Shown: positions 1,211 through 20,087 of the stretch, one piece after another
Position numbering within the stretch: position 1 is the stretch's first letter
Layout: each line of letters starts with the position of its first letter
IMG/VR virus record: IMGVR_UViG_3300023284_000965
Location: 1-23,347 of that record
Reading direction: 5' to 3' (one strand)
Length of the DNA stretch: 23,347 bases
Origin: a virus
Made by a program: the position numbers and the translations under genes
The notes under the pieces: model-generated
Told to the model about the DNA's origin: nothing
Databases searched by the model: none
The model's input: only the letters and a program-made list of their open reading frames with translations

Positions 1211-1606
1211 TCAATCTCCTGCTAATTCAAAATGGGGAAGGTCGTGAAAGCCCTGGTCCTTAAAACTGCCATCGCCGTCCCAATCTGCCCCTTGTCTGAT
1301 TCTAACACCCAAATCATGTGCTGCCTGTCGCACCAGCCCCGCCAGGAAATAGAACCGGGCTGTATCATTCCAGTCAATCGGGTAAGGTGCAATATCGACT
1401 GCTTTCGATGGCAGTGAATTATGTCTCGACTGTCCAGCCTTCAGCTTTGATTTACCCTGCCTGAATAATTCATTTTGCCGTTTGTCGGATCGCGTACCTT
1501 CTAACACGGTGAAATCATAATGTTCGATAATGAGTTCACAAATAGCCTGTAATTTCTCATCACAGGTGTCCAGTTTCGTTCTGCTTGATGTTCCAAAACT
1601 AGGCAT
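1211..1606 (-). CDS. Endolysin, peptidase M15-type (L-alanyl-D-glutamate or D-Ala-D-Ala peptidase)
   Basis: A 131-aa single-domain zinc peptidase that should cut peptidoglycan stem peptides at the end of infection. The M15 signature is clear: SRHNSLPSKAVDIAPYP with ligands H62 and D71, and DLPHFEL with the third ligand H125. GADWDGDG (107-114) is the usual loop before it. There is no signal peptide, so it needs the holin for export. ATG at 1606 has GGAT upstream. Length fits single-domain phage endolysins. It is followed at once by a holin candidate and spanin-type genes, forming a lysis cassette. Confidence 0.92.
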   Translation of the reverse strand: MPSFGTSSRTKLDTCDEKLQAICELIIEHYDFTVLEGTRSDKRQNELFRQGKSKLKAGQSRHNSLPSKAVDIAPYPIDWNDTARFYFLAGLVRQAAHDLGVRIRQGADWDGDGSFKDQGFHDLPHFELAGD

Positions 1607-1632: not shown

Positions 1633-2856
1633 CTAAATCTCATAAATCTCACAAAGCCAGTCAGTACCGTCATAAGTAGCCTTGAGGAAATCCCCAGAAC
1701 CAGGAACCCAATCAACCCCGGCATTTCCCTTTAATCCGCTTGCTGTGAAATCAATCGTAGTATTAGCGTCATTGATCTTGACCAGGATTTGTTGGCCTGG
1801 TGAACCAAAGTCAAAGTCCGTAATCGTTTTTGATGTGGTGTTAGCCGTTTGAAAAAGATTCCCACCCCTGACAGCGGGTGTTAGATCGCCGTCTGTAAAG
1901 GACTGATAAACCTCACCCATCGAAAGGAATTTGGTGTTGTAGACTCCGGTATTCGTGGTGATGGAGGTGTCGTCTAAAGCGGTGTCACAGTCGTCAGGAC
2001 TCAACGATAATTCGTAAGTCCCACCGGTAATTCCCCGCAGTATTTGATTGGTTCCCTCCAGTCTGAATCGACCGACACGAATAAATCCGGCATCGGGCAA
2101 GAATGCAAACTTGGTTGTAGTCGGGGCATTGTCGTAAACAACGTGAGCAAAATTGATATACATATCGGCAGAGCATCTGAACGCACTTCCAGGTGTTGCG
2201 TTTTTCATCTGTATGTAAGCGTAGTCAATCCACAACTTAGATGAGGCGACACAATTAATTGCAGCATACGAGTCTGTGTCATCGTCCATATCAGAACTCA
2301 TGCGTATCTGACCGATCATCACTTCAGAGTTTGTTTGAACAAGTATATTCGATGCGGGTGCGTCGCTAGTGTCTTCTTTTGTAGACTCAACATCAATTAT
2401 TCCTATAGAGCCGGTAGCCTCAAGCAATGTAAGCGGGCTGGCGACATCGGTGTGACCTACAATAGAGCCTATAGCAAAGTTCTTTTGATACTTCAGTGAG
2501 ACTATTGCGGCTCCGCTCTCCACGCCTGCGCAAGTAATCTCACCGATGGTTAAGCCATTACCAATGTTTGACGCATCTCCCGGAAAGTAAACAGCATGAG
2601 GATTAACACCCTGAGACTTCAATATGTTAATGCCATTAACCTGACCTATCTGACAGCCATCACCGGGCTGTCCAAAAGCACCGAAATCAACATCTTCGAT
2701 AGTAATTTGATCAACACTCCAGTTATTACCAGAGGCAAATAAAACACCCCCTACGAAACCCTTAATATCTATATGTCCAAAATGAACATTATTAAAAGCA
2801 CGGCCATAAATAGCTACCGCTGCCCCTGTAGGTGAACTCGCGGCCTCTGTCTTCAC
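1633..2856 (-). CDS. Tail spike, beta-helix and C-terminal part (continuation of 2853-3722)
   Basis: A 407-aa open frame. After the duplicated stretch it reads as a right-handed beta-helix: NNVHFGHIDIKGFVGGVLFA, WSVDQITIEDVDFGAFG, INILKSQGVNPHAVYFPGD, GLTIGEITCAGVESG. The C-terminal domain (about 310-407) has DLTPAVRGGNLFQTANTTSK, TIDFTASGLKGNAGVDW and FLKATYDGTDWLCEIYE, a form often ending phage spikes. The nominal start, GTG at 2856, is a Val codon of the ancestral frame and overlaps the upstream TGA (GTGA). Reinitiation there could make this half separately, but no ribosome site stands out. It most likely belongs to one 678-aa spike. Confidence 0.75.
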   Translation of the reverse strand: MKTEAASSPTGAAVAIYGRAFNNVHFGHIDIKGFVGGVLFASGNNWSVDQITIEDVDFGAFGQPGDGCQIGQVNGINILKSQGVNPHAVYFPGDASNIGNGLTIGEITCAGVESGAAIVSLKYQKNFAIGSIVGHTDVASPLTLLEATGSIGIIDVESTKEDTSDAPASNILVQTNSEVMIGQIRMSSDMDDDTDSYAAINCVASSKLWIDYAYIQMKNATPGSAFRCSADMYINFAHVVYDNAPTTTKFAFLPDAGFIRVGRFRLEGTNQILRGITGGTYELSLSPDDCDTALDDTSITTNTGVYNTKFLSMGEVYQSFTDGDLTPAVRGGNLFQTANTTSKTITDFDFGSPGQQILVKINDANTTIDFTASGLKGNAGVDWVPGSGDFLKATYDGTDWLCEIYEI

Positions 2857-2918
2857 GGCAGCCGAGCTACCGCTGCCCCTGTAGGTGAACTCGCGGCCTC
2901 TGTCTTCACGGCAGCCGA
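2812..2918. repeat. Perfect 53-bp tandem duplication inside the spike gene
   Basis: Bases 2812-2864 and 2865-2917 are identical, and the match runs one base further (2918 equals 2865). Because 53 is not a multiple of three, the duplication changes frame. It separates the spike into two ORFs that both encode KTEAASSPTGAAVA at the junction. Confidence 0.95.
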
Positions 2919-3722
2919 ATTATTAGAGGCATCTAGCGCAGCCGCGTCAAAGGTTGATCGTGTTTCCGTTGTCTCAAGATACAAATGACCGGGACAACTA
3001 ACGTCATTAGACCTGATTTCAAACACCGGAACACCCCAGGATTTTTGTCGGATCTTTGACTTTCGGCCATAAGAAATAATCGTACAAGCATTGTCTATTG
3101 TTGCAGAAAATGAAACAGCCCATTTGCTGGTCGTTTCGGGAATCTCAATATATCCAACTTTGGATGCGTTTTGAAATGCGGTTGCGTTATCGGTTGAATC
3201 ATCATCAATAGCGTTATATCTGACTATGTTTTTTTCTATGTAGAAGTTTGTAGGTGTTACGCTTGCTGTAACCTCTGCCGCCCGCCGATGCCATATGCCA
3301 AAATGTGAGCCTTCTATCGTCACTGTTACGGTGCCGGAACCACTAAACCAGTTGGAAGGATATTCTGTGTATACAAGCCCACTGAATGTCAATGTTTTAC
3401 CCGCATCAACACTGAAAATACACCCAGCCGAAACATGGCAGGTAACGGTAGAGGGTATCGTTAAATTTGAATCAACAGTCCATGTTCCGGTAGAAAACAA
3501 AAGCGTCGCAGTTGCTCCACCCAAACGAGTAACAGCATCATTCATGGCGGCGGCGGTCCGGCTTGTTCCTGCTCCAAAGACCTGGAGAACATCGACCTCG
3601 TCAGAGAAATTCAATCCTGTGACCGTACCTCCGGAGGCGTCCACACGCGAAGCTGTTCGTGTGACCCCATCATAAAAGGCCACATCATTTCTGGTTATTA
3701 ATCCACGTTGTACGTTAGCCAT
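2853..3722 (-). CDS. Tail spike, N-terminal part, cut short by tandem duplication
   Basis: A 289-aa ORF. Residues 1 to about 150 are the third copy of the fibre module (ANVQRGLITRNDVAFYDGVT, DEVDVLQVFGAGTSRT, CIFSVDAGKTLTFSG). The rest begins a beta-helix (KVGYIEIPETTSKWAVSFSA, VFEIRSNDVSCPGHLYLETT). It stops after AAVKTEAASSPTGAAVARLP because a 53-bp duplication shifts the frame. Deleting one repeat copy fuses it cleanly to the ORF at 1633-2856, giving 678 aa. ATG at 3722 has a GGGGTGG ribosome site. As it stands, the product would lack most of its receptor-binding part. Confidence 0.75.
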   Translation of the reverse strand: MANVQRGLITRNDVAFYDGVTRTASRVDASGGTVTGLNFSDEVDVLQVFGAGTSRTAAAMNDAVTRLGGATATLLFSTGTWTVDSNLTIPSTVTCHVSAGCIFSVDAGKTLTFSGLVYTEYPSNWFSGSGTVTVTIEGSHFGIWHRRAAEVTASVTPTNFYIEKNIVRYNAIDDDSTDNATAFQNASKVGYIEIPETTSKWAVSFSATIDNACTIISYGRKSKIRQKSWGVPVFEIRSNDVSCPGHLYLETTETRSTFDAAALDASNNSAAVKTEAASSPTGAAVARLP

Positions 3723-4235
3723 TTACCACCCCGGAAATCCAGATGCACCCAAAGAACACGTTACAACTCCTGTATACCAGCCAGTGCCATCATTTTTCCC
3801 ATACTCCACATAAACCTGCCCGCTAAATGTCAAGGTCACTCCGGCCGATATAACGAACACACACCCAGCGGCAATATGATTGGCACAGTTGGCAGGTATT
3901 GTCACATCTGAATCAATCAACCATATTCCGGAAGACCATCGCAATGTTACATTATTAACGGTGCCGATGAAATTAACAGCAGACGTAATCGTGGCAACCG
4001 TATAAGTATTTCCACTGCCAAAAACCTGTAATACATCCGTATAATCACCAATCGTTAATCCGGAAACTTTGCCGCCAGTTTCATCAACTCGAAATACTCT
4101 TTTAGTAACGCCATCCCAGTTTGCCAAATCATCACGTACTATATTACCGCGAATGATTTTCTTACCTGTAACAGCACTAATCGGTCCCCACGAATCCCCC
4201 CAGGAAGCAGCCCATGAGTTACCCCATGCGCTCAT
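3723..4235 (-). CDS. Fibre module protein, second paralogous copy
   Basis: A 170-aa protein. A short Trp/Ser/Gly-rich N-terminus (SAWGNSWAASWGDSWG) precedes the module shared with the proteins at 6315-6767 and 2853-3722. The module runs from RGNIVRDDLANWDGVTKRVF through GDYTDVLQVFGSGNTYT and CVFVISAGVTLTFSGQVYVE to LGASGFPGW. The Trp-repeat leader is absent from the other copies and may be an anchoring peptide. It probably assembles with, or as an alternative to, the other module proteins on the tail. ATG at 4235 lies in a TAATG overlap. Confidence 0.7.
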   Translation of the reverse strand: MSAWGNSWAASWGDSWGPISAVTGKKIIRGNIVRDDLANWDGVTKRVFRVDETGGKVSGLTIGDYTDVLQVFGSGNTYTVATITSAVNFIGTVNNVTLRWSSGIWLIDSDVTIPANCANHIAAGCVFVISAGVTLTFSGQVYVEYGKNDGTGWYTGVVTCSLGASGFPGW

Positions 4236-10318: not shown

Positions 10319-10897
10319 CTATCTCGATGTATAATAAATCACCGCATCCTCTCGGTTACGATCTTTGTCTCGAAACATTCCAGGGATCGTCCCTAACTCA
10401 ATCCAGCCAAGTTTTTCAACGTATTTATGTGCCCGTGTATTAAAACCGGGCATAAGTCCCACAATCACATCCAACAACGGCCCATTATCACCGGGCCACG
10501 AAAACCAGTAATCGACACAGGTCTTTCCAATATTAACAGACCTGCCCCATATTTCCTTGAATAAACAGAAATGCGCAAAGGCGTAATTCGATGTCACCGC
10601 AGACAGCCATGCAAACCCAACACAACGCTTTTGTTCAAAAAACAGCACCATGTGATTGCCCGGCTTCTTTGACATGCCGATAAATTGACCGAAATCGATC
10701 ACCGAACCCTCCCAAAAGGTCGTTTTCAGCAATCCCTGATCAACCATCTTATCGAACACAGAACCCATAAAATCATCCGATAACATCCACTCACCATCAA
10801 TCTGCACATACGGAACAAGCTTTAATTCATTCAGATTCTGCTGCGTAGATTGTTGCCGGTCCTGTTCCTGAAAATCTGTTTGCTGCTCTGTCGCCAT
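10319..10897 (-). CDS. GNAT-fold phage protein
   Basis: A 192-aa protein. Residues 1-24 are Gln/Glu-rich and probably disordered. The core shows the GNAT pattern: a strand NHMVLFFEQKRCVGFAWLS, a helix region IWGRSVNIGKTCVDYWFSW in the acetyl-CoA-loop position, and motif B FNTRAHKYVEKLGWIELG. The pyrophosphate-binding QxxGxG/A is not well kept, so acetyltransferase activity is uncertain. GNAT-like proteins beside tail and ejection genes are known in podoviruses and may be structural. ATG at 10897 has GGAG and AGG upstream. The 71-base overlap with the nozzle gene is long, and a downstream start is possible. Confidence 0.7.
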   Translation of the reverse strand: MATEQQTDFQEQDRQQSTQQNLNELKLVPYVQIDGEWMLSDDFMGSVFDKMVDQGLLKTTFWEGSVIDFGQFIGMSKKPGNHMVLFFEQKRCVGFAWLSAVTSNYAFAHFCLFKEIWGRSVNIGKTCVDYWFSWPGDNGPLLDVIVGLMPGFNTRAHKYVEKLGWIELGTIPGMFRDKDRNREDAVIYYTSR

Positions 10898-11876
10898 TAC
10901 CTGTCTCCACTAATCGTCGTCTGGTAATCCTATCGCCGGTTATTGTATGAGATTGATGCACTGCACCATCAAGAATCAACGCAGCCGTACAGGTCGATCC
11001 TGTCGGCACATTGACATCGTATTTTACAAAGCGGGGGAAATGTTTTCGGGTCTGCAAAGTAAAGTCCTTGCTCTGAATTTCCCAACTGATCGCTGTACCA
11101 GAATCATCAGTATCAGAATTGGACTCAACAACCCGCACAAAACCCGTGTTATCGCCAACCAATAATCGTTTGTTGGTCTCATCAACAGTAGCGGTTCTTA
11201 TCTCAACATCGGAACCATCGTTATAGATAAAATACTGCAATCTGTTGGTATCAAGATTCATCACCAATACATTTGCCGGGTAAGAATCACCGCTGGACTG
11301 ATAACCAAAATACAGATTATTCTGAAATGCCACCAGCCATGATGTAGCCATAGACGAAACACCCGGCAAACCTTCCTTGGTTTCTCCCCGGAAAATAGGC
11401 TCTAAAGAATTTTCGGTTATCTTTCTGTCAACACCATTGGCAAATAAATAGATACCATCCGGACCGGTATGATAAATGCCCTTACCATCAACCGTAACGG
11501 CACCTAAAACCGACTGTGCGCCAGTTCGTGCCTGGGTGCGGGACGCTAGAAAAGTATTATTGCCCGTGCCCGCCACATAGTAAATTTCATTGCTGGCAAA
11601 AACATACGGTTGTTGATTGTAAAAAAGGCCGGTCTTCAACGGGAATTGTGGTGTTGTAACTTCAATAAAAAACAGTGCAGGCCAATACTCAGGTTGTTTT
11701 GGTTTGCAATAAAAAAGCAAGTTGTCCTTCAGGATAAAACACGTTCCATCATAAGCCGGACCAAACACAAACGACCCCAAAGGTGGACGGTCATGATCAA
11801 GCGCGACCTCTGACCCCAAAAGACCGTCGGGTAAGTTGGAGTCAAAGTTATCAATAGGGGCAGTAAAGGTTGTCAT
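10827..11876 (-). CDS. Tail nozzle/beta-propeller protein, C-terminal ORF
   Basis: A 349-aa beta-propeller-like protein. Blade-type repeats are visible: FGPAYDGTCFILKDNLLFYC with KPKQPEYWPALFFIEVTTP, GKGIYHTGPDGIYLFANG, NNLYFGYQSSG, LVMNLDTNRLQYFIYND and RLLVGDNTGFVRVVES. 'PEYWP' after an 'lfy' strand is characteristic of tail nozzle or stabilisation proteins related in architecture to P22 gp10 and T7 gp12. The C-terminal domain (IQSKDFTLQTRKHFPRFVKY onward) attaches the propeller. It is coupled to the upstream ORF by ATGA. Its last 71 bases are overlapped by the start of the GNAT gene. Confidence 0.75.
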   Translation of the reverse strand: MTTFTAPIDNFDSNLPDGLLGSEVALDHDRPPLGSFVFGPAYDGTCFILKDNLLFYCKPKQPEYWPALFFIEVTTPQFPLKTGLFYNQQPYVFASNEIYYVAGTGNNTFLASRTQARTGAQSVLGAVTVDGKGIYHTGPDGIYLFANGVDRKITENSLEPIFRGETKEGLPGVSSMATSWLVAFQNNLYFGYQSSGDSYPANVLVMNLDTNRLQYFIYNDGSDVEIRTATVDETNKRLLVGDNTGFVRVVESNSDTDDSGTAISWEIQSKDFTLQTRKHFPRFVKYDVNVPTGSTCTAALILDGAVHQSHTITGDRITRRRLVETGNGDRAANRFSGTGPATIYAAESE

Positions 11877-12811
11877 TTACGACCTCCTAAGCCAGCACGT
11901 TGCGCAAGCAGTTCCTGGTATAGTTGCTGGCCTTCAGCATCGTCATCCCACCAGTTACTGCCATTCACATATCCAGAGTTATCTTCAATATCGATGTCCG
12001 GTTGCTCCTCCCAGGTATAGGTATTTTCAGTATCATGCTCTGCATCTTGTATGGTGAATTTGAACGCAGCCCCGGTGATATAATTATCGGTATCCTCAAA
12101 AGACTCAGATACACCGTGAGTATAACCAGCGGCTGGAACTTCCTGATCCAGAAAATAAGTAACTCCACCGTTTAGCGTTCGATACAAACGAACATGCGTG
12201 ACCTGGGTATCGGATGAATCTGTAATCGATACACTCAAAGATTGATTATTACCCTCACGGTGAAGGTCAGCAGAAGGTGATGGATTGCTTTCCGAAACAA
12301 CCACAGCACCCACCTTTCGTACATAGGTATATTTGGCATTATATTTGCCGGTCAGTCCTGTGGCTTGCCCGTTGGTTAAGGTTGGCGCGACTGTGGGCGC
12401 ATTAATCCCCCACTCGAAAGCCGCTGAAGACTCGATGCGTTTTCTGTCGGTGCCATTAAGGGCAAATATGTTATCTGTCGTGTCATTGAAGGCATTGTAT
12501 TTGATCGCTACCCACTGAGCACTTGTCAGGCCCGTCGCAATACTGGATTCGTCCTCATAAATCTGTGTGCCCGCAAACGCAAACCTTGCGCCTGCCTGTT
12601 CTTCAATCCACCATATAGCCGCTTCAATAGCAGTAGTGTTGAGTTTTACCGATCCATCACGAGTTATTGATTTGCCGTTCTCGTTGGTGCGCATGTTCTT
12701 GCACCGCACCAATGCCCCGGAATGACTGTTTTTGCCATCACTGGTCTCTGGGAGGTCGCTGGCATCAATAGCGACATTCAATGAACCATCAGGTGAGAAA
12801 AAGGTACTCAA
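11873..12811 (-). CDS. Tail nozzle/propeller protein, N-terminal ORF
   Basis: A 312-aa protein that starts STFFSPDGSLNVAIDASDLP and continues GALVRCKNMRTNENGKSITR, typical of the first strands of podovirus nozzle or stabilisation proteins, where blades carry 'G.. R.G' motifs. A fibronectin-like segment follows (about residues 150-235: YNAKYTYVRKVGAVVVSESN, VTHVRLYRTLNGG). The C-terminus is acidic and ends LLAQRAGLGGRK. Start is TTG at 12811 overlapping the previous TGA. The stop overlaps the ATG of the next ORF (ATGA). The next ORF continues the same kind of protein, so this is probably one half of a two-subunit or split nozzle. Confidence 0.65.
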   Translation of the reverse strand: MSTFFSPDGSLNVAIDASDLPETSDGKNSHSGALVRCKNMRTNENGKSITRDGSVKLNTTAIEAAIWWIEEQAGARFAFAGTQIYEDESSIATGLTSAQWVAIKYNAFNDTTDNIFALNGTDRKRIESSAAFEWGINAPTVAPTLTNGQATGLTGKYNAKYTYVRKVGAVVVSESNPSPSADLHREGNNQSLSVSITDSSDTQVTHVRLYRTLNGGVTYFLDQEVPAAGYTHGVSESFEDTDNYITGAAFKFTIQDAEHDTENTYTWEEQPDIDIEDNSGYVNGSNWWDDDAEGQQLYQELLAQRAGLGGRK

Positions 12812-14758: not shown

Positions 14759-15604
14759 CTAATAGGTACACCTGTTACACGGATCATACGCCTGCCTGTT
14801 AAATGCTCCAGCCCTCATTCTACGATATCCAGGCGAATTAAATACCTCCAAAACATGATCTTTCGATACATCGCCTATCGGGTATTCACCGCCACCATCC
14901 ATACAGCACAAAGCAACGACCCCGGTAGACATAATATTTATCTCATACCAACGTCCGCAAGTTGTGGCAGGGACTTCCTTTTCAATCGCATCATGATCGT
15001 GGAAATCAATCCACGCCTCCCGCTTAATCAGGTGAACCACAAACTCAGGATATCGGTCATTCACAAATTCATAGAATTGACCATCAGCAAAAGTATCATC
15101 AACCACCTTCGATATAATGACAGGATGAGGAAATCCCTGCATTTTTTTCTTGTGTAACAGATCAAGTCTCTTTAACGTCTTGGACAAAGGCAACTGCATT
15201 ACCTTTTCGTACACATCAGATCGGTGTTCATTCAGGCTGATCCACAGATGTTCAACATTCCTTATCCTGGCGAGTTGGTCTATCTTTTTTTCAGTAATCG
15301 GAGTGCCGTTACTAAATAGCCTTATGAGTGCGTTTGGAAGTCTTTGGTTAATATCCTCCAATAAAGGCAACAGACGTTTATCAAGAAACGGTTCATTGAC
15401 CTTGAACGGCGATAAATAAAATGGATAAGTCTTGGGAATGTCCTCAAGGTCGGTGAGAATTTTTTCAAGCAACTCATCGGACATCTTGATGCCCTTACGA
15501 TCTAACGTAGGATAAGGACAAAAATCACAAGCCGCATTACATTTGGCCCATGTCTCTATTTGAACCGCAGCCGGATAATCAAGACTTGGAGAAAACTCTG
15601 GCAT
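14759..15604 (-). CDS. Radical SAM protein with short SPASM/twitch-like C-terminus
   Basis: A 281-aa radical SAM enzyme. The SAM-cluster motif CNAACDFC (C22, C26, C29) lies in AKCNAACDFCPYPTLDRKG. The barrel shows FYLSPFKVNEPFLD and ALIRLFSNGTPIT, the usual 'NEP' and 'TNG'-like strands. The C-terminus has C216-x11-G228-x4-C233, an adjacent C234, and a terminal CNRC (C276, C279). That is the first half of a SPASM motif plus one CxxC, enough for one auxiliary 4Fe-4S cluster rather than two. Related proteins include peptide-modifying enzymes and alcohol dehydrogenases; the substrate here is unknown. The ATG at 15604, with GGTGGGGG ten bases upstream, is preferred over GTG at 15628. The stop abuts the next ATG. 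Confidence 0.9.
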   Translation of the reverse strand: MPEFSPSLDYPAAVQIETWAKCNAACDFCPYPTLDRKGIKMSDELLEKILTDLEDIPKTYPFYLSPFKVNEPFLDKRLLPLLEDINQRLPNALIRLFSNGTPITEKKIDQLARIRNVEHLWISLNEHRSDVYEKVMQLPLSKTLKRLDLLHKKKMQGFPHPVIISKVVDDTFADGQFYEFVNDRYPEFVVHLIKREAWIDFHDHDAIEKEVPATTCGRWYEINIMSTGVVALCCMDGGGEYPIGDVSKDHVLEVFNSPGYRRMRAGAFNRQAYDPCNRCTY

Positions 15605-15683
15605 CTTCAAAAAGCCCCCACCGGGCACAGCATGGATAGGGCACCCTGCGTTTTACGGTTTCCCGTCCCGGCAGGAACAAACC

Positions 15684-15965
15684 TTATCGTCCGGTACGAG
15701 TAACAGTGACTCCGCCGTGCAAATGACCAGTGCCACCGGAAAGAATCAACTGTTCCTTGTCCAGTGGCATAGAGCGAATTATATCCATCCGGGCTATTTC
15801 GTCCTCCGGGTCGAAATCCACTGTAGCCACGTCAAAGGCAAACTTTTCTCCAACAATAAAGGGCTCAACCATTGCACCCAATGTCGTTGTTACCGTTGCC
15901 CAGTCCCAAAACATCGAAATACCGCGACTGTCATCGTGATAAACGGTCCTACTTTGAATACTCAT
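15684..15965 (-). CDS. Unknown 93-aa protein between the island enzymes
   Basis: A 93-aa protein with no family I recognise. It contains WDWATVTTTLGAMVEPF, an acidic middle (DFDPEDEIARMDIIRSM) and a Gly/His-rich end (GGTGHLHGGVTVTRTGR). It has no signal peptide or membrane segment. The ATG overlaps the stop of the GT/methyltransferase gene (ATGA), so it is co-translated with it. A 79-base spacer follows before the radical SAM start. The composition suggests a compact beta-rich protein, perhaps a small structural subunit displaced among the enzymes, or an accessory factor. Both are guesses. Confidence 0.7.
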   Translation of the reverse strand: MSIQSRTVYHDDSRGISMFWDWATVTTTLGAMVEPFIVGEKFAFDVATVDFDPEDEIARMDIIRSMPLDKEQLILSGGTGHLHGGVTVTRTGR

Positions 15966-17344
15966 GCTACTTTTTCCTCTTTTGAAACGTCAACATGCCT
16001 TTTTATCCACAAAAAGTCATTGCTTGGGTATACATTTCTTGCAACCAAAAACTCCTTGACCGCTTTATGATTCATGGAAATATGCTCCATATTTGCAAAG
16101 TCCATTGTTCTAAAGAAGTTAGTTACCAACCCGCCTTCCGGCTTCAAAGCATTCACTATCTTTTCCAGATCCTGTTCCCAATACTGCAAATGCTCAATAG
16201 CATCCAACATCAGTATATAATCATATGGACCTTTTAGCTCAAAACCACAATCAATGCCGCGTTTCTTGGCTCTCCATTTCGTAAACTCATAAGCACCGGC
16301 ACCATCAATGTCAATAAAGTCCATTTTGTTACCTTGCATCGCCAGCTCAAACCCAACCGGGCTGGAACCACATCCGTAATCAGCACCGTATGAGCCGTTA
16401 TTCGAGTTTATCAGGTTTTGAAAATATTCCATCTCATCCTGAGTTTTCTCAAGATGATGATAGGCAATTTGCCTTGCCAGTTGTTCTTTGCCCTTCGACG
16501 CATAATAATCATCTTTGTTTTCGTACTCTGGAAAATCAGTCATCGAGTACGTTTGAGCAAATTCACATATCTCAACAAAATCAAGCCCCAGATATTCCTC
16601 TGCATCCTGCCGGTATAAAGCCAAAGCACTGTTTTTTCTCCATTGTTTATTCATGCCTTGCGTAATTCCTTGAGAAACCTGTCCGGCATCAACCGCAATC
16701 TTATGGCGATTATCAGCCGTCACAACCTCGCGCTTACTGAGTACATGGCCGATTGTTATTGATGTATCACAAGCCACCTTGAAGCCAGCGTCCTTTGCCT
16801 TCTTGCAAATCTGTATATCTGTTCCCAGGTCAAATTCAGGCTCAAACCACGGCGATTTAATTTTATCGAATATCGACATGCGGATCATCATGCAGCCACC
16901 GCCCTGCACATCGACCTCTTGATACTTACCAAGAATTTCATCATCCCTTAACCAGTAATATCCGCCTTGCTCGCCCTCGCGCATCACCACTGGCCGACAG
17001 TCGCCACCACGATGATAGTAAAGCGCCCCAACAATTCCCAATTCAGGGTCATTATCGAAATGATCCAGAAAGGTCTGAATCATGCCATAACGTGAATTGG
17101 GTTCCGATGTTGTTTCCCAATCGATAACATGATCGTCGTCAAGAAACATCAGGTAATCGCACCCCGTTTGCAAAGCACCCTCGACAATGGCGTTTCTTGC
17201 TCTAAATTGCTCACTCTTGGATTTTATACCGATCATAAATTCATGATCTGTTCTGCGCCCGCAATAAAACGCGAATCGCATGTAATCCTCAAGCGTTTCT
17301 GCACTAACATTTTGATACGCGGGTATGCCGATTAGAATCTTCAT
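15962..17344 (-). CDS. Glycosyltransferase family 2-like / SAM-dependent methyltransferase fusion
   Basis: A 460-aa two-domain enzyme. Residues 1 to about 240 are a GT-A glycosyltransferase: MKILIGIPAY opening strand, RARNAIVEGAL, the metal-binding DDD at 69-71 (YLMFLDDDHV), GGGCMMIRMSIFDKI (148-162) as acceptor-side loop, then TDIQICKKAKDAGF and a late His (ITIGHV). Residues about 315-415 are a class I methyltransferase: motif I ADYGCGSSPVG (321-331), acidic turn FIDIDGAG (343-350), then DYILMLDAIEHL and LKPEGG. Known chemistry would be sugar transfer from a nucleotide sugar and methyl transfer from SAM. The ATG at 17344, overlapping the previous stop (ATGA), is preferred over GTG at 17356. 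It ends in another ATGA overlap. The acceptor is unknown. Confidence 0.88.
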   Translation of the reverse strand: MKILIGIPAYQNVSAETLEDYMRFAFYCGRRTDHEFMIGIKSKSEQFRARNAIVEGALQTGCDYLMFLDDDHVIDWETTSEPNSRYGMIQTFLDHFDNDPELGIVGALYYHRGGDCRPVVMREGEQGGYYWLRDDEILGKYQEVDVQGGGCMMIRMSIFDKIKSPWFEPEFDLGTDIQICKKAKDAGFKVACDTSITIGHVLSKREVVTADNRHKIAVDAGQVSQGITQGMNKQWRKNSALALYRQDAEEYLGLDFVEICEFAQTYSMTDFPEYENKDDYYASKGKEQLARQIAYHHLEKTQDEMEYFQNLINSNNGSYGADYGCGSSPVGFELAMQGNKMDFIDIDGAGAYEFTKWRAKKRGIDCGFELKGPYDYILMLDAIEHLQYWEQDLEKIVNALKPEGGLVTNFFRTMDFANMEHISMNHKAVKEFLVARNVYPSNDFLWIKRHVDVSKEEKVA

Positions 17345-17604
17345 ACTTCCACCCACAAATCAAGCCAAACCTTATCCAGCTTTCCCTGCTCTACCCATTC
17401 CCTGGCTTGCTGTAATTCTTCTTCCTTAAGAGTTATAACATTGCGCACTCGTCTGTTCCCACACTCACACATACCCAACTTGTTAAGTTGATTCAAAAAA
17501 ATCAGCTCAGAACAAGAATCGCAACGAACCAGAGGATCAATAAATTCGCCATCGTGGCTGTACCTTTCTGCTGCAAAAACCTGTTCTGTCGAGAGTTTCG
17601 ACAT
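17341..17604 (-). CDS. Zinc-ribbon small protein, first gene of enzyme island
   Basis: An 87-aa protein with CDSC at residues 28-31 and CECG at residues 46-49, the two halves of a zinc-ribbon-like site. A helical C-terminus follows (EEELQQAREWVEQGK) and ends in WLDLWVEV. The ATG at 17604 has a good AGGAGA ribosome site. Its TGA overlaps the ATG of the glycosyltransferase gene (ATGA), so the two are translationally coupled and probably act together or in fixed ratio. I do not recognise a named family beyond the metal site. Confidence 0.75.
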   Translation of the reverse strand: MSKLSTEQVFAAERYSHDGEFIDPLVRCDSCSELIFLNQLNKLGMCECGNRRVRNVITLKEEELQQAREWVEQGKLDKVWLDLWVEV

Positions 17605-17616
17605 GCCTATCTCCTG

Positions 17617-17644
17617 TCAAAAACGGGGAGTCCCTACACTCCCC
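17617..17644 (-). terminator. Rho-independent terminator after the capsid/decoration genes
   Basis: Read on the minus strand, GGGGAGT (17644-17638) and ACTCCCC (17631-17625) form a perfect 7-bp GC-rich stem around a 6-base loop, followed by GTTTTTGA. It sits between the decoration gene stop (17653) and the zinc-ribbon gene start (17604). It should lower transcription of the downstream enzyme, connector and tail genes relative to the coat protein. Confidence 0.8.
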
Positions 17645-17652
17645 AATTGGGC

Positions 17653-18129
17653 TTAAAGACCCTTGATGAAAACCGCAATCGCCTTGGTCGTGAAACTGGC
17701 TTGCGCCGCTAACGCAAAGCCAACCCAATCAAAGTTATGAACCGTGATTGTGGAAGTTGCTTGCGCGTTAGGGTCGGCACTTGCAAGGGCAAAAATCGCA
17801 TCCGCACAAGTTAATGCAGTACCTTTTGCAACAGCAGGATTCGTGCCTGTTTTCGTTCTGACACGTACCGCACTATGAAAACCATAGACCTGTAAAAGTC
17901 CGTAGTCGCCACTGGCAATCGTTTCTGCTGCAATACCGGCAAACGCCGCCCCGTAATGGCTATTAACACCCGTTCCATCAGTTGGCTTTGTAACACCCAC
18001 CCCGTCAATGTCGGTAGTGTAGTCCCAGATGACCGCTTGCCCATTTGTCAGGCTTGCGGTTGACCAGGAGTTCTTCGCGACGAGGAATACCTTTTCCGGA
18101 TTCGTCCGGTTTACTCGTTGAAATAACAT
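17653..18129 (-). CDS. Putative head decoration / structural protein
   Basis: A 158-aa beta-rich protein just after the capsid gene. Its middle part, AGIAAETIASGDYGLLQVYG followed by FHSAVRVRTKTGTN, resembles small head-associated proteins that follow capsid genes in many environmental phages. These are thought to cement or decorate capsomers. The C-terminus (HNFDWVGFALAAQASFTTKA) is hydrophobic and Ala-rich. The ATG at 18129 has a strong AGGAGA ribosome site. An intrinsic terminator begins nine bases after the stop codon. If the virion is glycosylated by the enzyme island downstream, this surface-exposed protein would be one candidate substrate (inference). Confidence 0.65.
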   Translation of the reverse strand: MLFQRVNRTNPEKVFLVAKNSWSTASLTNGQAVIWDYTTDIDGVGVTKPTDGTGVNSHYGAAFAGIAAETIASGDYGLLQVYGFHSAVRVRTKTGTNPAVAKGTALTCADAIFALASADPNAQATSTITVHNFDWVGFALAAQASFTTKAIAVFIKGL

Positions 18130-18184
18130 TAACAGTCTCCTTTTGTGACTGACGAATCCCCTATCAATTCCGTTTTGTTAAAGA

Positions 18185-19294
18185 CTAAGCGACAATAGTT
18201 TGAGATACGGCATAACCAACACCGTGTTTGCGTAAGTTGCTCACCGCAGCATTTGCCATCAGTAGAATCTTCGCCGTTTTAACGGTCTGATTCTCAGGCT
18301 CAATAAACGGAGTTGTCACCATATCGGTCTCCGCATCGATGATTAACTTGTAGAACTTCGTGTTCAGCATAAACACAGTACCGGCAGTGATAGCGGTAGT
18401 TCCGTTATCAATGTCAGGAACCTGCTCATCCCAAATACACGTTGCTCCACGTAGCTTGATGTTGTCAAAGCCCATGTCTGCCAACCTGGTGTTGGTGTAA
18501 CGGACTTTCTCATCAAGAGCGTTTTCATACGTTTCAAACGTGACCTGATCCATCAATGCAACATCCGGCGAACCACCCGACCCTCTGGAACAGTGGTTGT
18601 AAAGACGGCGTAAAGCCACAACCAACCCCTTATAGGTCGTTACCGAAAGTGCAAAGGCATTGCCGGTATCTGTCGAACCAGAATCAAACACCGCAGTCTT
18701 ATGCCTCCACCACGACTCAGTAGCTCCAGCAATATTGCCAACATTACCGCCGACTGTCGGGTCGGTAGCATTGAGCTTGCGCAGGAAATAACCCAGTGGG
18801 TTAATGTCCTTTACATCATTGCCGGGAACAAATGTCGCACTTGATACAGTGCCTTGTACGAGTTGCTGATTGAACGTTTCAAACAGGCTCATTTCAGCCT
18901 GACCAACCTTGGCCTTCAGAAGACCAATCTTTGCCGCCTCGCCGGAGTTCTGACGTTCTTCCTTGCGAGTAATGGAGATCGTTCCACCAATCTCTTTCCA
19001 CTCGTAAAAAGCCGTTGTCATTCCGTCCTGGATGGTTGTATCCAGTGTATCGGCACCAGAATAACTTTTTACGGTCTTATTCTCTTGCCACATCACCGGC
19101 GCGCGAATGCGCTCACCACCATCTTGCGTATCAACAGCCCCATTCAAGCGCATTAGTGCTAGAAACGCGCTGTCCTTGAAGATGTTGTCAAACATCGTGC
19201 CACCAGCCATATACGCATCCAGCGTTGTTGTAAGCAACGCATCGTAATAGATAGTGTTTGTACTGGGTGCACCTGTATCACCTACAGTAGCCAT
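18185..19294 (-). CDS. Major capsid protein
   Basis: A 369-aa protein, likely of the HK97 fold used by all tailed-phage coats. A helical N-terminal arm (about residues 10-50) is followed by RIRAPVMWQENKTVKSYSG and DGMTTAFYEWKEIGGTISIT, which resembles the E-loop to spine region, then the long spine helix (AAKIGLLKAKVGQAEMSLFE). A probable A-domain contains CSRGSGGSPDVALMDQVTFE and a C-terminal strand region with FMLNTKFYKLIIDAETDM. It has a strong ribosome site (AGGAGT) and lies between scaffold and decoration-type genes. A terminator follows two genes later, consistent with high expression. The fold is inferred, not aligned. Confidence 0.9.
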   Translation of the reverse strand: MATVGDTGAPSTNTIYYDALLTTTLDAYMAGGTMFDNIFKDSAFLALMRLNGAVDTQDGGERIRAPVMWQENKTVKSYSGADTLDTTIQDGMTTAFYEWKEIGGTISITRKEERQNSGEAAKIGLLKAKVGQAEMSLFETFNQQLVQGTVSSATFVPGNDVKDINPLGYFLRKLNATDPTVGGNVGNIAGATESWWRHKTAVFDSGSTDTGNAFALSVTTYKGLVVALRRLYNHCSRGSGGSPDVALMDQVTFETYENALDEKVRYTNTRLADMGFDNIKLRGATCIWDEQVPDIDNGTTAITAGTVFMLNTKFYKLIIDAETDMVTTPFIEPENQTVKTAKILLMANAAVSNLRKHGVGYAVSQTIVA

Positions 19295-19307
19295 AATTCA
19301 CTCCTGT

Positions 19308-20087
19308 TTACTCACCCGTTGGACGTTTAATACCTCTCCTTGCCAAGTCTTGTTTTGCGTGTTTAACCGCATCGTCAAAAGTCTTGATCTTGGGTGATTT
19401 GGTGGGCTGCTGTGTAGTCGTGCTTTGGCTCTGAACCAATCCACTTTCGGTTGTACCCTGAATTTTTGCCAGCGCGGCCTTGGTTGCTCTCGCATTCAAA
19501 ACCTCTTGCGGCACAGACATCTGATAGAGTTTTTCATGATCATTCACAAGCGTTGGGTGTGCTTGTAAATTTGCCATCATGGGTTCCTCATACATACGCC
19601 AGTCCGGAAACGAATTATCAAGCGCCAACTCAACGCCCTGCTTTTTCATGGTCTGCAGTTCGCCAAACATCGGCTTGAGTTCATCCATCACCTGCCGCTT
19701 TGCTTCAGTCATGACATCATCCCAGTTTTCATACGTCTTCTGGGTTTCACCTTGATCCTGCGGCTGGCCTTGTACCAACTGGTATCCGTTTTGCTGTGCA
19801 AGTTGACGCATGGACGCGATAGGATCAAGCATAAACTGATCGTACTGACTGATCTTGTCTGCACCCGCTTTGAACGCTTCGGTTTTCTTACCAAACGCTC
19901 GCTGCATCTCCTTGTAATGCGCTTCTAACTCAGGTTTACCTCGGATTGTTTCGTAATCAAAAAACGACTCACCACTCTGTTCAGTTCCGTTACCGGTTGT
20001 CCTTACAGGTGCTGCAGATTCTCCTACAGATTCTCCGGTAGTTTCCGTGGTTACGGATTCTCCACCAGTTTCCTCGGTTTCTGCCAC
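19308..20087 (-). CDS. Capsid scaffolding protein
   Basis: A 259-aa acidic, Gln- and Lys-rich protein placed directly before the major capsid gene, the usual site of the scaffold. The N-terminal 35 residues are Thr/Glu/Gly repeats (TGESV occurs more than once) and look disordered. The middle is predicted coiled or helical (AHYKEMQRAFGKKTEAFKAG, EAKRQVMDELKPMFGELQ). The C-terminus is basic (HAKQDLARRGIKRPTGE), as in scaffolds whose basic helix-turn-helix tail binds coat protein. The start is GTG at 20087 with TGGAGA upstream. The gene ends 13 bases before the capsid start. Function is inferred from position and composition. Confidence 0.85.
   Translation of the reverse strand: MAETEETGGESVTTETTGESVGESAAPVRTTGNGTEQSGESFFDYETIRGKPELEAHYKEMQRAFGKKTEAFKAGADKISQYDQFMLDPIASMRQLAQQNGYQLVQGQPQDQGETQKTYENWDDVMTEAKRQVMDELKPMFGELQTMKKQGVELALDNSFPDWRMYEEPMMANLQAHPTLVNDHEKLYQMSVPQEVLNARATKAALAKIQGTTESGLVQSQSTTTQQPTKSPKIKTFDDAVKHAKQDLARRGIKRPTGE

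Follow-up and report, generated by a model that had tools for sequence, protein, structure and literature searches.

A 53-bp tandem duplication that probably inactivates the tail-spike gene of a phage known from one metagenomic contig

Two described systems come close to the locus considered here. Spontaneous tandem duplications occur in pneumococcal capsule genes, namely cap3A, cap8E and tts (Waite 2001, 2003, cited by PMC4243769), and the stf gene of phage lambda is lost through frameshifts at a high rate in plate-grown phage (PMC2762979). How does the present locus compare? The window, i.e. the whole stretch of DNA analysed, is 23,347 bp long and represents an entire IMG/VR record. It carries a tailed-phage structural module with a major head protein, a terminase large subunit and an endolysin. 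A minus-strand gene at 3722-1633, most likely a depolymerase-type tail spike as judged from homology, is broken mid-gene by a repeat into the open reading frames 3722-2853 and 2856-1633 (Table 1). As in cap3A, a perfect, frame-breaking tandem duplication lies inside an open reading frame.

Scanning of the 23,347-bp window with TRF gave a two-copy tandem of period 53 (2.0 copies, 100% matches) at 2812-2918, and a script found the two 53-bp stretches to be identical letter for letter. The period-53 identity continues one base past the second stretch, which makes 54 bp the length of the longest exact repeat and leaves the junction ambiguous by one base (A). One 54-mer occurs twice in the window; no 55-mer is repeated anywhere in it, and there is no other exact repeat of at least 20 bp. 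A perfect 53-mer tandem is expected by chance in 23 kb about 23,000 x 4^-53 times, which is effectively nil. The exact sequence of the repeat is absent from other IMG/VR contigs. In base composition the unit (2812-2864) stands out, with a G+C content of 66% vs 34% at 2700-2811 and 46% at 2919-3030; only 0.4% of the 53-mers in the window are as rich in G+C.

Why did the duplication arise at this position? The site offers neither an exceptional hairpin nor a junction microhomology of more than one base. The 53-bp unit can fold as DNA (-7.1 kcal/mol for one strand, -6.5 kcal/mol for the other), but approximately 7-8% of the window's 53-mers are equally stable, and a hairpin-driven duplication was rejected.

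The consequences for translation follow from the length of the unit. Since 53 is 2 modulo 3 and no multiple of three, the ribosome reads the second copy in the wrong frame and terminates after adding RLP, and the 5' part accordingly ends, past the duplication, in the out-of-frame residues RLP*. With one copy removed the arithmetic is (2090-53)/3 = 679 codons, a gene of 2037 bp encoding 678 aa plus a stop. The 5' part consists of the anchor domain (approximately residues 1-140) and a stretch in common with two related spikes, G003 and G009, up to about residue 204-215, after which the variable body begins.

Table 1. Coordinates of the broken spike gene, the repeat copies and neighbouring genes in the window
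Feature	Position	Strand	Basis
5' part of the interrupted tail-spike gene, 289 aa, ATG start	2853..3722	-	phrog_2234 tail spike, E 1e-4; homologues; translation
3' part, 407 aa, internal GTG start; rest of body and C-terminal domain	1633..2856	-	homology to G003
GTGA, where the TGA stop of the 5' part (2855-2853) overlaps the GTG of the 3' part (2856-2854)	2853..2856	-	sequence
Repeat copy on the 3' side, the second reached by the ribosome	2812..2864	-	TRF and script
Other repeat copy; period-53 identity extends one base, to 2918	2865..2917	-	TRF and script
Stand-alone anchor domain paralogous to that of the spike, 170 aa, immediately upstream of the spike gene	3723..4235	-	46% identity to the spike N-domain, E 7e-39
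Another such stand-alone paralogue, 150 aa	6315..6767	-	66% identical to 3723-4235
Endolysin, directly downstream of the spike	1211..1606	-	phrog_465, E 1e-35

The window's own proteins say little about what the gene encodes. The match of the 5' part to the tail-spike family is weak, and a protein-level search of phages likewise gave one weak tail-spike match; a DNA-level search of phages found no relatives. Neither half reached a Pfam family or had a significant match among solved structures, and AlphaFold models of the two halves are of low confidence (mean pLDDT 40 and 45), too low for a fold search, and lend no support. As neither half found a homologue in viral contigs when used as a single-protein query, relatives were sought by way of the major capsid protein. 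This brought out G003 (IMG/VR 3300022562_001358; G003:C1:18365-20269, L025:2866-4770), whose major capsid is 74% identical to that of the window and whose spike is one uninterrupted 634-aa open reading frame from an ATG. It matches the 5' part over residues 1-204 (45% identity, E 4e-51) and the last 89 residues of the 3' part, 317-405 (62%, E 4e-32). In G003 the body scores as pectate-lyase-like (PF12708, residues 167-376) and the C-terminal end as Phage_depo_C (PF25692, 553-625). It is these two families in G003 that make a depolymerase-type spike the most likely product of the window gene; the beta-helix body is thus read from the homologue and from the phrog_2234 match, the window halves themselves having no Pfam match, and the 62% identity of residues 317-405 is to a G003 stretch that scores above the PF25692 cut-off, whereas the window protein itself reaches no family.

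Is the unsplit form the rule? The anchor domain is found in 15 related records, and with G009 (cut by a contig end) and G004 (frame-broken) left out, it lies in uninterrupted frames of 274-774 aa, a range in which 678 aa is ordinary. Unsplit frames in the relatives indicate that the gene is normally unsplit, the split being particular to the window contig; moreover, no other window gene with homologues consists of two open reading frames that match the two ends of one relative's open reading frame and are split in no relative. The intact G003 spike resembles that of the window in its anchor domain (45-48%), its C-terminal domain (62%) and a related structural module, but it has no repeat. The break, at about spike residue 275-290, falls inside the variable body, between the two ends matched in G003. 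Around it the body is too diverged for alignment with any relative, which precludes a residue-by-residue comparison of the break, and G003 is the one relative that matches both parts. The main elements of the original prediction are borne out by these results: TRF and script agree on two identical head-to-tail 53-bp copies, the frame arithmetic supports both the split and a single 678-aa frame on removal of a copy, and intact, single-frame homologues exist, with both parts of the putative spike matched in one of them.

The neighbourhood holds further points of interest. The anchor domain at residues 1-140, common to the spikes of the 15 relatives and to the two window paralogues, probably serves attachment to the particle. 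Both paralogues end in GASGFPGW*, and another tail gene lies immediately downstream of each; in those relatives that were examined, the domain occurred joined to a body. The two stand-alone copies suggest that particles may tolerate a product made up of the anchor alone. Elsewhere in the window, the minus-strand frames 10827-11876 and 11873-12811 are one fused open reading frame in relatives L003 and L006 and separate ones in L007 and L011. A radical-SAM-like gene (14759-15628, minus strand) and a glycosyltransferase-methyltransferase fusion gene (15962-17356, minus strand), the latter kept in relatives, sit within the virion structural module. Relatives of the major capsid protein (L190-L193) are on contigs binned into unrelated metagenome-assembled genomes, of Dehalococcoidales, Gottesmanbacteria and Smithella; these are probably mis-binned phage contigs, uninformative on the host.

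A second frame-broken spike is present in the relative G004 (IMGVR_UViG_3300033143_001929, contig 17570-19569; L027:2571-4570), which has two adjacent spike paralogues with a common anchor domain. The spike frame stops at L027:3860, and up to 4570 the -1 frame continues with body-like sequence; the frame changes near ACTAAAAACAAGG (L027:3750-3765), where there is no repeat. This second break may likewise reflect a loss mutation, or else an error in the sequence.

On balance the window probably records a recent loss-of-function duplication of 53 bp in the tail-spike gene, and of the three options in the original prediction, a recent inactivating duplication fits best. The gene would have encoded one spike whose N-terminal domain anchors it to the particle, followed by a pectate-lyase-like body and a Phage_depo_C end, with a putative role in receptor binding, probably as a polysaccharide depolymerase. 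A 53-bp stretch of the body would then have been duplicated in tandem in the genome as assembled. Within the second copy the ribosome would lose the frame and stop after RLP, yielding a predicted 289-aa product of anchor and a stub of body, and with the remainder of the body in another frame the spike would be switched off. It could be restored if strand slippage, or recombination of one copy with the other, removed one of the two. Most likely, then, the two-copy allele has lost the receptor-binding function of the spike; the allele is presumably present in the phage population, its origin appears to be recent, which would explain why the copies are still identical, and it should be reversible by loss of one copy. 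The kind of mutation is already known; the evidence here consists of one contig, and the mutation is probably transient.

Could the second copy have been written by the assembly, through a chimeric read or in the course of joining contigs or closing gaps, with the spike intact in the phage? We consider this less probable than a real mutation, but the most probable of the alternatives. The array is known from a single metagenomic contig, as assembled sequence alone; the repeat is tens of bases long and frame-breaking with identical copies, and it is present in none of the relatives' spikes examined. However, an untrimmed overlap of length L yields a repeat of period L, and 53 equals neither k nor k plus or minus one in the k lists familiar to us, which may or may not include that of the record's own assembler; we know of no assembler k-mer setting that matches a period of 53. 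The usual error of graph assemblers with tandem repeats is, moreover, collapse and not expansion. One such list is 21, 33, 55 for metaSPAdes, used for example in PMC10405475. With a longest repeat of 54 bp and no repeated 55-mer, a graph with k = 55 resolves the array unambiguously, and a de Bruijn graph with k of at least 55 would contain the array only if reads had crossed the junction. In 1.58 Mb of non-redundant other loci, mostly IMG/VR contigs, exact tandem duplications do not cluster at k-like lengths, a sample size with which a low artefact rate is compatible: simple two-copy exact tandems of at least 40 bp are rare there, with a single further example (42 bp, in L045), most of the other exact tandems being 27- and 36-bp arrays, with unit lengths that are multiples of three. 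The resolvability at k = 55, together with a period outside these k lists, favours a real mutation.

Much less probable is an evolved on/off switch, the second option of the original prediction, whereby the lineage would keep a one-copy (on) and a two-copy (off) allele through slippage or recombination and so modulate receptor binding. The off state is formally reversible, and analogies exist, as similar duplications in pneumococcal capsule genes give high-frequency phase variation (Waite 2001, 2003, cited by PMC4243769) and the side tail fibres of lambda are readily lost by frameshift (PMC2762979). The broken spike of G004 and the anchor-only proteins encoded by the window phage can be read in the same direction. 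But the G004 break is without a repeat, and the spike loci examined in the relatives contain no comparable repeat and no exact tandem of at least 20 bp, so that recurrence in the same gene of related genomes, as would be expected of cap3A-type phase variation, was not found here; the switch has no positive evidence in its favour. Nor does the site carry a flanking long repeat, a short-unit array, an invertase or other machinery, and the array, two copies of 53 bp by TRF, differs from the many short units of a simple-sequence-repeat contingency locus. A more elaborate version, in which the reversible duplication and stand-alone anchors occupying the same particle sites together constitute a switch that gives spike-bearing and spike-less particles, is less probable still.

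That the split gene is functional as it stands, its 3' part made by reinitiation at GTGA or by frameshifting to give two chains or a fusion longer by about 18 residues, is highly improbable. The GTG does overlap the TGA stop, as had been predicted, both frames are open across 2856-2919 (64 nt), the frame of the 3' part being open from 2919, and other structural genes of the window also overlap by a few bases. However, this GTG, the only start-like codon in the doubly open zone, serves within the repeat as an ordinary valine codon, and anti-SD pairing upstream of it amounts to only -3.0 kcal/mol, among the weaker values for genes of the window. Reinitiation, as raised in the original prediction, is conceivable in principle, but there is no usable Shine-Dalgarno site, and the product would lack the particle anchor and should not attach to the particle. 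The overlap looks accidental: among off-frame stops in the spike genes of the window and four relatives, 63 of 375 (17%) have a start-like codon equally near (within -4 to +10 nt), and no explanation for it is needed. Programmed -1 frameshifting was rejected, as the overlap zone has no slippery heptamer of the form XXXYYYZ.

The loss-of-function duplication thus remains the preferred reading. If real, it captures a phage population soon after the loss of a host-binding spike, a loss that could be reverted directly, and would allow the costs and benefits of spike loss to be studied in nature. Automatic annotation would file the one broken spike as two unrelated proteins.

With pneumococcal cap3A, cap8E and tts (cited in PMC4243769) the locus has in common an in principle reversible duplication within the open reading frame of a surface structure that switches the gene off; the pneumococcal examples concern a bacterial capsule gene in which reversion and phenotype have been demonstrated, whereas here the allele is that of a phage spike from one metagenomic contig. 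With lambda stf it has in common the loss of a host-attachment appendage by a frame-breaking mutation, a loss that can be favourable where fast adsorption is costly (PMC2762979). The stf mutations are mostly one-nucleotide slips in homonucleotide runs and affect an accessory fibre (PMC2762979), whereas the spike of the window is broken by a 53-bp duplication.
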